Positions 15,664 to 22,746 of a stretch of 64,000 nucleotides of DNA are shown here, one piece after another. This stretch comes from Paenibacillus sabinae T27 (GTDB taxonomy: Bacteria > Bacillota > Bacilli > Paenibacillales > Paenibacillaceae). The notes under the pieces were generated by a model. That model did not search any database. It had not been told where the DNA came from and worked only from the letters and a program-made list of their open reading frames with translations. The stretch is taken from NCBI RefSeq assembly GCF_000612505.1, contig NZ_CP004078.1, positions 2,829,252 through 2,893,251 on the forward strand, written 5' to 3'. Position numbers and translations under genes: made by a program. Positions within the stretch are counted from its first letter, which is position 1. Every line of letters starts with the position of its first letter.

Positions 15664-15740
15664 GATCAAATAGTCTATAAAAGAAAATCAAGGAGTGAAT
15701 AATGTTCGGTGAAAATAAAGTATTAGACTGGAGTCGTTGA
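15664..15740 (+). pseudogene. Remnant of a TetR-controlled gene: operator-like site plus 12-codon stub
   Basis: GATCAAATAGTC (15664-15675) matches 9 of 12 bases of the tetR operator. It is followed by AAGGAGTG and ATG 15702, opening MFGENKVLDWSR and then TGA. The stub runs directly into a member of the AAAATAAAGT-TAGACTG repeat. This looks like the start of a former target gene replaced by repeat sequence. Confidence 0.4.
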
Positions 15741-20336: not shown

Positions 20337-20469
20337 AACTGCCCGATAGCTTAACCGTTATTAATGATAAGGTTCCCCGCGCTGTCTGTAACGGCAAGTT
20401 TTAGGGCCATCCTTTTGTGGGATGGCCCTTTCATTTTTCTCATTATGTTGAACTATGTTCCCCGTTAAC
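20337..20469. repeat. Dispersed repeat of the CTGCCC/CCCGTTA family with internal terminator
   Basis: It starts AACTGCCCGATAGCTTAAC and ends GTTGAACTATGTTCCCCGTTAAC, close to the ends of the 92-bp repeats, but with a different middle. The middle holds a strong hairpin AGGGCCATCC / GGATGGCCCT (20403-20429) followed by TTTCATTTTT. That hairpin may end the lysR transcript. The rest of the 20103-20563 gap shows no gene. Confidence 0.65.
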
Positions 20470-20492
20470 GAGCCGCCAACATAAAAAACAGA

Positions 20493-20517
20493 GCATCTGA
20501 GGTCGCGCCTCAGATGC
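20493..20517. terminator. Bidirectional terminator after yidC
   Basis: GCATCTGAGG and CCTCAGATGC flank a five-base loop, with A-rich sequence on the left and TTGTTTTT on the right. Confidence 0.85.
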
Positions 20518-20563
20518 CTTGTTTTTAGTATTGTTTTATGACTGGTTCCATTTTATAAATCTT

Positions 20564-21394
20564 CTACATCGGTAGGTAGGTTTTACTCTCTCCATTTGGC
20601 TTCGTGTATATTTTATTGAGTATGATCGTTTGCACGATAATGAATATACCACCAACCGCCCAATATAATGGTAACGCGGCGGGCATCTCAAAAGAAAAGA
20701 CACCCATCATGATCGGTGACAACAATCCGATGAAAGCCATTTGGTTATTTTGATTTTGCTGATACTGCGCTGAAACGGATTGAGACACGCGGAACTGAAC
20801 GTAATACACCGCAGCGGCAATAAGCGGCAAAATCATATCTGTTTTCCCCAAGCTAAACCACAGAAAATCGTGAGCTGCAATCTCTGGGGTACGACGAATG
20901 GCGTAGTAAAATGCGAGGGTGATCGGCCATTGGAGAAGCATCGGTAAACACCCCATGTTTAAGGGATTAAATTGATGCTTCTGGTAGAGTTGCATCATCT
21001 CGACTTGCTGTTGTTTTTTTGCATCCGTACTGACGTCGTTCTTATACTTCTCCTTAAGTGCAGTTAACTCTGGCTGGAGGACGGCCATCTTTTCTTTCAT
21101 GTCCATTTGTTTCTTGGTTTGATTCATCATGAGCGGCATGATCGCAAGTCTGATGATGAAAGTCATCAGCACGATCGATAATCCGTAGTTTCCGTGAAAT
21201 GCATTCGCGAAGAATTTGATCAAGATCGAAAATGGATAAATAAAAAAGTGGTTAAATATCCCTGATGAATCGGCATTAATCGAGTTTGATTGGGATGCTG
21301 TCGAACACCCGCTGAGCAAAATGATCGGAATAACTCCAATCAACATGACGAGAATGGGCTTGGCCCATTTTTGGAGCAACAAAATCTTTTTCAT
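20564..21394 (-). CDS. yidC: Membrane protein insertase YidC/Oxa1 (SpoIIIJ/YqjG type)
   Basis: A 276-residue lipoprotein insertase. It has a type II signal with lipobox LLSGC (near residues 24-28), a periplasmic segment and the five-helix Oxa1 core, including YGLSIVLMTFIIRLAIMPL with the conserved groove Arg. The cytoplasmic loop is QTKKQMDMKEKM...LKEKY, followed by PLNMGCLPMLLQWPI. It inserts membrane proteins alone or with SecYEG. The longer frame to 21457 is rejected because ATG 21394 follows AGGGAGG. That binding site can be hidden by a hairpin that overlaps the preceding small gene, which resembles mifM, the sensor controlling yidC2 in Bacillus subtilis. Confidence 0.95.
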   Translation of the reverse strand: MKKILLLQKWAKPILVMLIGVIPIILLSGCSTASQSNSINADSSGIFNHFFIYPFSILIKFFANAFHGNYGLSIVLMTFIIRLAIMPLMMNQTKKQMDMKEKMAVLQPELTALKEKYKNDVSTDAKKQQQVEMMQLYQKHQFNPLNMGCLPMLLQWPITLAFYYAIRRTPEIAAHDFLWFSLGKTDMILPLIAAAVYYVQFRVSQSVSAQYQQNQNNQMAFIGLLSPIMMGVFSFEMPAALPLYWAVGGIFIIVQTIILNKIYTKPNGESKTYLPM

Positions 21395-21400
21395 CGTTGT

Positions 21401-21440
21401 CCTCCCTAATTGAAAGTATGGAATTTCAATGTGGGGAAGG
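21401..21440 (-). promoter_or_regulatory. Hairpin hiding the yidC ribosome binding site
   Basis: In the minus-strand RNA, ATTGAAA pairs with TTTCAAT (7 bp, plus positions 21424-21430 and 21409-21415). Further out, CCTTCCC (21434-21440) pairs with the Shine-Dalgarno GGGAGG (21401-21406). The 5' arm lies in the last codons of the upstream small gene, so a ribosome stalled there would open the hairpin. Confidence 0.7.
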
Positions 21441-21656
21441 ACCATTGTCGTCTTCATCAGGTGCTTCTCTTCGTCTGGCGATACGTACTATCCACCGCTG
21501 AATGCTGTTGGGTTGCGACAGTCTAACAGCCACAAACCAAGTTGAACCGGCTGCAGCAATTTTATGACCCCTGTGTATCTCTTGTAAAGAAAAATAGGTG
21601 AATGGAAGAAACACTAAGGAAGAGATGAGAGCGATCGAGAATGCCAATTGGACCAA
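21426..21656 (-). CDS. MifM-like arrest-peptide sensor upstream of yidC
   Basis: A peptide of about 76 residues. One N-terminal membrane segment (QLAFSIALISSLVFLPFTYF) is followed by a basic stretch and the C-terminal series SIQRWIVRIARRREAPDEDDNG. As I recall the MifM arrest region, it has the spaced pattern R-I-x-x-W-I followed by D-E-E-D-A-G; here I, W-I, D-E-D-D and G occupy equivalent places. MifM stalls the ribosome unless YidC inserts its membrane segment, and stalling exposes the yidC2 binding site. The stop lies 31 bases before yidC. The start is unclear: TTG 21656 has weak GGAG spacing, while an in-frame CTG at 21674 lies 9 bases after CGGAGG. Confidence 0.65.
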   Translation of the reverse strand: MVQLAFSIALISSLVFLPFTYFSLQEIHRGHKIAAAGSTWFVAVRLSQPNSIQRWIVRIARRREAPDEDDNGPSPH

Positions 21657-21782
21657 GTCATAAAAATGCTCCAGTCAAGTTCACCTCCGCATGAGCCATA
21701 TTGGAAAAATTTGAATAATGATTATACGTTAGAAAAAATGTGTGGTTTCACTAACCTGCCCGTTAGCTTAATGAAGCATCGT

Positions 21783-21864
21783 CAGTCTAATACTTTATTT
21801 TCTCAGTCTACAACTTTATTTGCCTAGTCTAACACTTTATTTTTCAGTCTAGAACTTTATTTTC
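21783..21864 (-). repeat. 21-bp tandem repeat, four copies
   Basis: Copies start at 21783, 21804, 21825 and 21845. They share the pattern CAGTCTANNACTTTATTTTC on the plus strand, the reverse complement of the single copies near 15.7-15.85 kb. Immediately before, CTGCCCGTTAGCTTAATGAA (21757-21776) starts another member of the dispersed repeat family. Confidence 0.9.
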
Positions 21865-21875
21865 TTTTGACAAAT

Positions 21876-21921
21876 AATGATCTCATTCTCCACAAACCCG
21901 TGGATGTTGAGATCATTTTTG
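21876..21921 (+). terminator. Strong terminator-like hairpin with no gene before it
   Basis: AATGATCTCA...TGAGATCATT, with inner TCCAC/GTGGA, is followed by TTTTT. No plus-strand gene precedes it within 1.7 kb, so it may end a lost gene or a small RNA. The remaining gap to 22110 shows only AT-rich promoter-like sequence. Confidence 0.6.
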
Positions 21922-22110
21922 CGTAAAACCCGGTCTAATACGGACAATTTTGGCGATGCTATAAATGTGCTGACGATTTATTTTAAGCTTCCGAATCATA
22001 GGACTAGTGACTTATTTCTTAATTACTTTATTTATTTTAGTAATTATAGTTTGAAAATTATCTATATATAAGTTATATTATTAACAAACAAACATAAAGG
22101 AGTGTTACAT

Positions 22111-22746
22111 ATGTCTACTGTTCTCTATATAACCGCCCACCCGCATGATCACCATACTTCCTACTCGCTGGCTGTCGGTGAAGAATTTATCGAAGCCTAC
22201 CGGGAAGCACATCCAGGCGATGAGGTGATCCGTCTCGACTTGTACAAGCTGTCCGTCCCTCATATCGATGCCGACGTATTCAGCGGTTGGGGCAAGCTTG
22301 CTTCCGGCACTTCTTTCGATCAGCTGTCCGACGCCGAGAAAGCCAAAGTCGGACGCCTGAGTGAAATCGTTGATCAATATGTCGCCGCCGATAAATATGT
22401 ATTTGTTTCACCAATGTGGAATTTTTCGTTCCCACCGGTTTTAAAGGCCTATATTGACGCTGTTTGCGTCGCCGGCAAATCCTTCAAATATACCGAGCAA
22501 GGCATCATTGGCTTGCTGACGGACAAAAAGGCAATCCACATTCAAGCAAGCGGCGGCGTCTATTCGGAAGGCCCTGCAGCTGGTTTCGAAAGCGGCCACA
22601 GCTATTTGGCAAAAATCATGCAATTCCATGGCGTGCCGTCCTTTGACGGGATTTTTGTTGAAGGCATGGCCGCAAAGCCGGACCAAGCTCAATCGATTAA
22701 AGAAGCAGCGATCGAAAAAGCCAAAGAGGCGGCTAAATCGTTCTAA
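22111..22746 (+). CDS. azoR: FMN-dependent NADH azoreductase (AzoR family)
   Basis: A 211-residue flavodoxin-fold quinone/azo reductase. Signatures are [21 protein letters not shown] at the FMN phosphate site, [20 protein letters not shown] (the PMWNF motif) and the [11 protein letters not shown] loop. It reduces quinones and azo compounds with NADH as a dimer in the cytoplasm and often protects against thiol or quinone stress. ATG 22111 is chosen over the in-frame GTG at 22102, which lies too close to AAAGGAG. It is a single-gene unit. Confidence 0.95.

Follow-up and report, generated by a model that had tools for sequence, protein, structure and literature searches.

We find that the secondary yidC gene (yidC2) of Paenibacillus sabinae T27, located in a 64,000-nucleotide stretch of its genome (henceforth the window), is in all likelihood preceded by a leader of the MifM family, which has a predicted CTG start and probably arrests its own ribosome at a run of acidic residues; this would open a hairpin predicted to mask the ribosome-binding site of yidC2. 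The arrest, its YidC-dependent release and the induction of yidC2 would follow the precedent of MifM from Bacillus subtilis. The leader lacks the Met-Asn pair of that protein, and carries instead a basic-acidic core that is shared by most of its relatives.

Gene organization of the yidC2 locus

The leader is encoded on the minus strand by 82 codons, which run from the CTG at 21674-21672, its likely start, to the TGA at 21428-21426, as delineated by sequence, coding selection and HMM searches. A Shine-Dalgarno (SD) sequence, GGAGG (21684..21688, minus strand), stands 9 nt 5' of the CTG and is retained in most relatives. On the same strand, yidC2 (20564..21394) codes for a secondary YidC/Oxa1 insertase of 276 residues recognized by the Pfam model PF02096 (146 bits, E 1.3e-42), and 31 nt separate the leader TGA from its ATG (21394). 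These coordinates, the hydropathy of the leader and the PF02096 match bear out an earlier note, made from the sequence, which had described a small frame with one membrane helix ending 31 bases before yidC. The genome, a single contig of 5.27 Mb, has two yidC copies, of which the other is SpoIIIJ-like, lies directly 3' of rnpA and is without a leader frame; the leader profile matches its own genome just once. On sequence grounds, the layout, with a small frame directly 5' of the secondary yidC and the primary spoIIIJ elsewhere, is as in B. subtilis, where a housekeeping insertase is accompanied by a second one preceded by a leader. Searches with the leader returned no model above cut-off in Pfam and NCBIfam and nothing useful among PDB sequences, while the two Rfam matches in the region 20400-22400 were both under their gathering scores; a promoter scan gave 7 promoter-like sites, with 5.6 expected.

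Two further elements lie upstream of the leader. Just 5' of it, at window positions 21778-21862, are four direct repeats with a spacing of about 21 bp and the core ATAAAGTNNTAGACT on the minus strand. Exact copies of this core number 12 across the genome, where its reversal occurs 3 times, and further copies are located at C1:2751016-2752026 and in the window at 15715 and 15838; the 3.8-kb loci of the seven close relatives examined have no exact copy. An imperfect 21-nt inverted repeat (window 21873-21920), between the leader and a divergent gene for a flavodoxin-fold reductase (22114-22746), may serve as either a terminator or an operator.

The predicted arrest core

The predicted arrest region, recognized from sequence and conservation, comprises residues I58-Q-R-W61-I62-V-R-I-A-R-R-R-E-A-P-D-E-D-D76 (21447..21503, minus strand). 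It ends in the acidic run D73-E74-D75-D76 (21447..21458, minus strand), which profile alignment and the core pattern identify as the counterpart of the DEED of MifM. The tail thereby has the I-x-x-W-I and D-E-D-D-x-G already pointed out from the letters, in the form of I58-x-x-W61-I62 and D73-E-D-D-N-G. According to the account of stalling in PMC4423224, MifM in B. subtilis requires R69-I70, W73-I74, M80-N81 and the acidic run. The Ile, the Trp-Ile and the acidic run of this B. subtilis-type motif are present in the window leader (I58, W61-I62, D73-D76), whereas Arg69 and Met80-Asn81 of MifM are replaced by Ser57 and a basic-acidic stretch, with R-R-R-E-A-P in place of R-M-N-S-P-V-N. If the CTG is the start, D73-D76 also fall near residues 70-100, the range within which the acidic run is sought in the screen described in PMC10987492.

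This basic-acidic core, of the type R-[RK]-[KR]-[ED]-x-P-acid, was detected in 111 of the 118 regions inspected upstream of yidC (88 from Paenibacillaceae and 30 from Bacillales), that is, in 85 of the 88 Paenibacillaceae regions drawn from both our genus and our wider family samples (the exceptions being G049, G009 and G062) and in 26 of the 30 Bacillales loci. A Trp occurs within the 14 residues preceding the core in 100 of the 111 matches, and a Pro within the core in 105. We counted Met-Asn independently of the core pattern, since the latter cannot match it: among the 88 Paenibacillaceae regions and 35 additional loci, Met-Asn follows the Trp ahead of the acids only in L182-L184, three loci of the B. 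subtilis group, with Met-Lys seen in G341 and G839. The earlier note had read the arrest sequence of the window as a diverged one lacking Met-Asn; the lack of Met-Asn stands, but a core found in 111 of 118 regions is no stray divergence. Rather, on comparison of these sequences, it is the experimentally studied Met-Asn motif that looks like the exception.

The predicted SD-hiding hairpin and the proposed position of an arrested ribosome

Folding and comparison predict a hairpin on the minus strand with its 5' arm, GUCCUUCC, within the last leader codons (21435..21442), an inner stem-loop AUUGAAA...UUUCAAU of 7 bp in the window (21409..21430), and a 3' arm, GGGAGGAC, which contains the yidC2 SD (21399..21406). 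In the minimum-energy fold, GUCCUUCC forms a stem with GGGAGGAC, as does AUUGAAA with UUUCAAU, reproducing the SD-pairing structure initially proposed from the sequence. Taken by itself, the energy of this hairpin is unremarkable (z -0.94, with 37 of 200 shuffles folding equally well); hence, we dropped single-sequence fold energy as evidence and used comparison instead. As for access to the ribosome-binding site, 3 of 40 junction shuffles make that of the window equally hard to open, and only 24 of 40 rows have 2 or fewer such shuffles among their 40.

Across 30 distinct junctions of the window type, the window included, 97.7% of the stem cells pair, against 31-61% when the stem is slid. This alignment (A3) holds 30 of 40 rows, counts the outer 5 bp of the inner stem, and excludes six duplicates of entered rows along with four from Cohnella (G157, G185, G247, G278), which have a relocated 5' arm and were folded one by one. 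Covariation in the window type is restricted to one pair changed on both sides, in 3 cells, a pair count reached by 131 of 500 shuffles and a cell count reached by 1 of 500; this is in part because the SD itself can hardly vary.

Many leaders of other Paenibacillaceae (among L062-L100, e.g. L064) overlap the yidC2 start and have the SD inside the leader, with a Cys conserved beyond the acidic run (in the 37 rows that matched), and represent an alternative layout of the same device. Their counterpart arms, UCCUCGUUUGU and ACAAACGAGGA, pair in 89.6% of the cells over 35 junctions, versus 37-65% when slid (alignment A5, holding 35 of 46 rows and excluding six window-type rows, G069, G071 and three rows identical to G100). 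Here, 7 of 11 pairs have changed on both sides, in 23 cells as against a shuffled mean of 4.5, with none of 500 shuffles, which do not keep relatedness, reaching 23. By these alignments, the predicted stem-loop that sequesters the yidC2 SD is conserved, and it covaries in the overlap-type relatives.

According to the cited account of MifM stalling (PMC4423224), the first stall occurs when the P site is occupied by the fourth acidic residue, D89. Its counterpart in the window leader is D76 (21449-21447), and a ribosome with this codon in the P site, its footprint taken as 16 nt from the first P-codon base, is computed to cover 21449-21434, and with it the whole 5' arm (21442-21435). Over 40 rows, the median computed cost of opening the SD is 10.4 kcal/mol for the free RNA and falls to 7.3, 4.9 and 4.4 kcal/mol with the third, fourth and fifth acidic codon in the P site; junction shuffles cost 6.4 kcal/mol. 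The corresponding values for the window are 9.3 (free) and 9.5, 5.1 and 5.0 kcal/mol, and those for the overlap type (41 rows) 9.4 (free), 8.6 at the fourth residue, which is almost no relief, and 3.9 kcal/mol at the fifth. Partial relief of the SD begins, in both layouts, about where the acidic run ends.

These figures bear on where along the core the ribosome would halt. An arrest at E-A-P or A-P-D, akin to that of the R-A-P-P peptides, with the acidic run kept for another end, would account for the proline in the core of 105 of the 111 leaders. However, with Pro72 (21461-21459) in the P site the ribosome edge would be at 21446, short of the hairpin arm at 21442, and the opening cost falls only from the fourth residue in the window type or the fifth in the overlap type. 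We consider such an arrest site unlikely and favor one at the acidic run. The tunnel of the host ribosome is consistent with stalling of the MifM kind: the tip of its own uL22, KRFRPRAMGRAS, retains Phe85 and Met90, both of which are tied to MifM stalling in B. subtilis, with Met90 deciding MifM specificity, according to the passages on uL22 in PMC4423224.

Relationship to MifM

In direct profile-profile comparison of the close relatives with the B. subtilis-group MifM, hhalign places WI on WI and DEDD on DEED with a probability of 1.85 and an E-value of 0.027, which is not significant alone; a diverse profile of 15 rows raises the probability to 31 (E 5e-4). We searched 299 Bacilli genomes with the leader profile and fetched 12 of the matching places. 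At E<0.005 there were six matches outside the family, each of which lies 5' of a yidC frame, as recognized by eye (the frame being interrupted in G417). By the same visual inspection, the weaker matches in G365, G448, G364 and G431 have no yidC frame. The widened 15-row profile matched 66 of 249 genomes of the order to which G404 belongs, and in the 30 best loci from these 66 genomes yidC is next in every case; four of these loci (G465, G595, G404, G507) had themselves contributed rows to the profile. An automated call found yidC downstream in 33 of 38 loci; it missed L162 and L166, which are near contig ends, and the three true negatives are weak matches of the MifM profile (L187-L189). The weak matches in G341 and G839 (E 0.003) turned out to be genes also retrieved by the MifM profile, with E-values of 1e-35 and 3e-34.

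HMMs built without any MifM sequence provide a complementary line of evidence. One made from the 111 leaders retrieves all eight MifM proteins at E-values of 8e-5 to 4e-3, above each of 715 decoys (515 window ORFs and 200 shuffled MifM sequences; best 0.77), and one made from the 85 Paenibacillaceae leaders still ranks the eight first, albeit by a narrower margin (E 0.0017 to 0.11; best decoy 0.39). In the reverse direction, the MifM profile had no match at any known leader in 60 relatives. Homology to MifM is supported in this manner by HMMs and linked searches, with direct comparisons being weak, and we take the leader to belong by descent to the MifM family on sequence statistics that are moderate rather than overwhelming. 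Aligning the peptide with MifM homologues and with the peptides before yidC in related genomes, as the earlier note had proposed, brought out both the family relation and a conserved leader, and its description of a MifM-like sensor with an SD-hiding hairpin is, given the profile searches and the MifM-free HMMs, still the best reading.

A stalling leader unrelated to MifM, which acquired its W-I and acids by convergence as in the case of the clostridial CliM, would fit the non-significant hhalign of the close set and the absence of key B. subtilis residues, and has precedents in the unrelated arrest peptides that precede yidC, at least as these are described in the relevant parts of PMC13183943 (CliM) and PMC7897499 (ApcA). 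Against this stand the linked profile searches and the MifM-free HMMs, which retrieve MifM above all decoys, the equivalence in gene position, topology and acidic end, and the existence of intermediates such as RITTWISKVIRMKRSSNDDEDHS. We accordingly view convergence as improbable and retain descent from a common ancestor with MifM as the preferred explanation.

Selection on the leader peptide and its start codon

Of 41 leaders found for the coding test, 38 were kept, three being dropped for a stop or for want of an acidic residue at position 6. Over these 38, pN/pS is 0.42 in the frame versus 1.02 and 1.00 in the other two, and for codons 56-75 it is 0.26 versus 2.00 and 0.80; by these substitution patterns, the leader frame is under protein-level selection. 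Sixteen diverse leaders have D6, S19, R60, W61, R68 and D73 as invariant residues. The tails of G050 and G248 are altered by an indel after the acidic run, with the hairpin letters retained and the frame intact up to that run; because the tails differ and the hairpin letters stay, selection seems to act on the peptide up to the acidic run and on the RNA beyond it.

The same two loci enter into the question of whether there is any arrest at all. The leader might merely couple translation, or the hairpin act on its own, perhaps in the manner of a thermometer or brake, and both the good conservation of the hairpin and its persistence in G050 and G248 in spite of their frameshifted tails would agree with this. 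Nevertheless, a plain coupling leader needs no conserved core, and the strong constraint on codons 56-75, the invariant R, W and D, and the keeping of the frame up to the acidic run in G050 and G248 therefore speak against it; we regard a device without arrest as having little chance of being correct. A chance open frame in an ordinary spacer, for which the CTG as codon 1 and the failure of Pfam and NCBIfam models might be cited, is refuted by the in-frame pN/pS and by conservation with in-frame selection across Paenibacillus and Cohnella, and can be set aside with near certainty.

In the 42 rows in which the aligned codon 1 of the leader could be placed (it was unplaceable in 5 further rows), it is CTG in 32, ATG in 6, GTG in 3 and TTG in 1, with the CTG of G157 being doubtful on account of a GTG three codons earlier. 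An in-frame stop abuts the CTG on its 5' side in 19 of the 32 CTG rows, including the window, so that an upstream start is impossible in these, and 11 more have just two open codons ahead of it. Among 32 database relatives, 8 are 76-residue proteins with a start at codon 7 or its equivalent, six codons later. As start codons interchange at one aligned position, the CTG would appear to initiate, and the leader likely starts at this conserved CTG. A literature search on CTG starts in bacterial leader peptides found nothing related.

Downstream of the start, the leader has a single hydrophobic segment at residues 7-25 (21600..21656, minus strand), placed as a transmembrane helix by hydropathy and charge, with a Kyte-Doolittle score of 2.15, compared to 2.24 for MifM under the same scoring. 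A charge of -2 on its N side and of +1 in the 15 residues following it predict an N-out/C-in orientation, with a soluble tail of more than 30 residues.

Phyletic distribution

The leader precedes yidC2 in Paenibacillus (11 named loci) and Cohnella (4 named loci). Each of 61 genomes of the genus has a yidC that is 34-39% identical to that of the window and was taken as the SpoIIIJ type. A full-length yidC2 orthologue is present in 18 of the 61, one of them (G007) with an internal TAG, and the leader lies ahead of all 18; most genomes of this sample are without a full yidC2. There are only pieces of the gene in G048, G049, G009 and G033, and a short weak match in G019. The split copies in G048 and G049 are also preceded by the leader, and no intact leader accompanies the second partial copy in G046 or the piece in G009. 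Among 295 genomes of the wider family, yidC2 matches at E 1e-80 or better occur in 81.

We also observed leader frames that remain intact beside split, truncated or interrupted yidC2 genes in G048 (L021), G049 (L022, L101) and G007 (L011), with only a leader fragment in G009 (L023). In this distribution, yidC2 seems dispensable. Frames with other basic and acidic ends precede the secondary yidC in L130-L132 (G458, G428, G395) and L124 (G425), and are possibly further diverged leaders.

Proposed mechanism and comparison with known YidC monitors

We propose that, as the leader is translated, its N-terminal helix would emerge from the ribosome. With ample YidC capacity, the helix, as in MifM, would insert N-out/C-in and pull the chain, cancelling the arrest, upon which the ribosome would terminate, the hairpin re-form and yidC2 expression stay low. 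When YidC capacity falls, the core W-I-x-R-x-x-R-R-R-E-A-P-D-E-D-D would hold the ribosome with D76 or a following codon in the P site, and the arrested ribosome, covering the 5' arm, would allow yidC2 to be translated and the insertase supply to be raised. Counting against this MifM-type reading are the absence of R69 and M80-N81, which are needed in B. subtilis, the weak direct similarity, an SD cost that is still a median 4.9 kcal/mol at the fourth acidic codon, and the relatives in which yidC2 is broken or missing.

The leader and MifM (YqzJ, the leader of yidC2/yqjG in B. subtilis) are alike in their position before a secondary yidC, a helix with an acidic N side, W-I and an acidic run at nearly equal spacing, an SD-hiding stem-loop, a permissive uL22 and detectable homology. 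They differ in the likely CTG start of the window leader, in its lack of R69 and Met-Asn with R-R-R-E-A-P instead, in length (82 versus 95 residues) and in the spacer between helix and acids (51 versus 59 residues). The MifM cluster of Fujiwara et al. 2024 likewise comprises leaders of Firmicutes yidC genes with a localization signal and an acidic patch, and the sections of that paper dealing with the screen give 572 MifM-type sequences sorted from 592 Firmicutes genomes (PMC10987492). The acidic run of the 76-residue database relatives, at 67-70, sits at the edge of the 70-100 range given there. Along with MifM, a proven YidC monitor is CliM (uC_KYxIW) of the Clostridia, which also precedes yidC and has an SD-masking stem-loop, but differs in its K-Y-x-I-W motif, its independence from an acidic run and its arrest mechanism, as characterized in the pertinent parts of PMC13183943. 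ApcA of the actinobacteria is likewise a leader before a secondary yidC, but has an R-A-P-G arrest sequence and, in the portion of PMC7897499 concerned with it, no SD-sequestering hairpin predicted by its authors.

The earlier note had further suggested that the same feedback operates here outside Bacillus: a MifM-type leader is indeed supported, but it is not new in kind, as the relevant text of PMC10987492 already indicates. Our searches for literature on MifM in Paenibacillus or on conserved MifM in Bacillales found none, supplementary lists not being covered, and those on Paenibacillus and arrest peptides returned nothing related. Hence, with the kind already known, what is new, as far as the literature was searched and supplements aside, is that the usual form of the core has no Met-Asn, that the CTG is conserved, and that the SD-hiding hairpin is kept whether or not the leader overlaps yidC.

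Implications

These observations lead us to a broader proposal, for and against which we see the case as evenly poised: Met-Asn may be a local oddity of B. subtilis MifM, and the general YidC-monitor code of the Bacilli, namely W-[IL], a few residues, R-[RK]-[KR]-[ED]-x-P and an acidic run, may arrest without it. In Paenibacillus, the sensor would then be initiated at a conserved near-cognate CTG, and the leader would end ahead of the yidC start in some lineages and extend across it in others, with the SD-hiding hairpin preserved throughout. Mechanistic knowledge of MifM is based on the B. subtilis sequence, for which the cryo-EM structure, in the description found in PMC4423224, has Asn81 contacting Arg66 of uL4. 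If the common core lacks Met-Asn, this contact cannot hold generally, and it becomes possible to test for a second, widespread mode of stalling within the same tunnel. Moreover, the conserved CTG and the hairpin geometry predict a stall once the P site has reached the fourth residue of the acidic run or a later one, and leader screens that trust annotated starts can misplace or overlook peptides of this sort.
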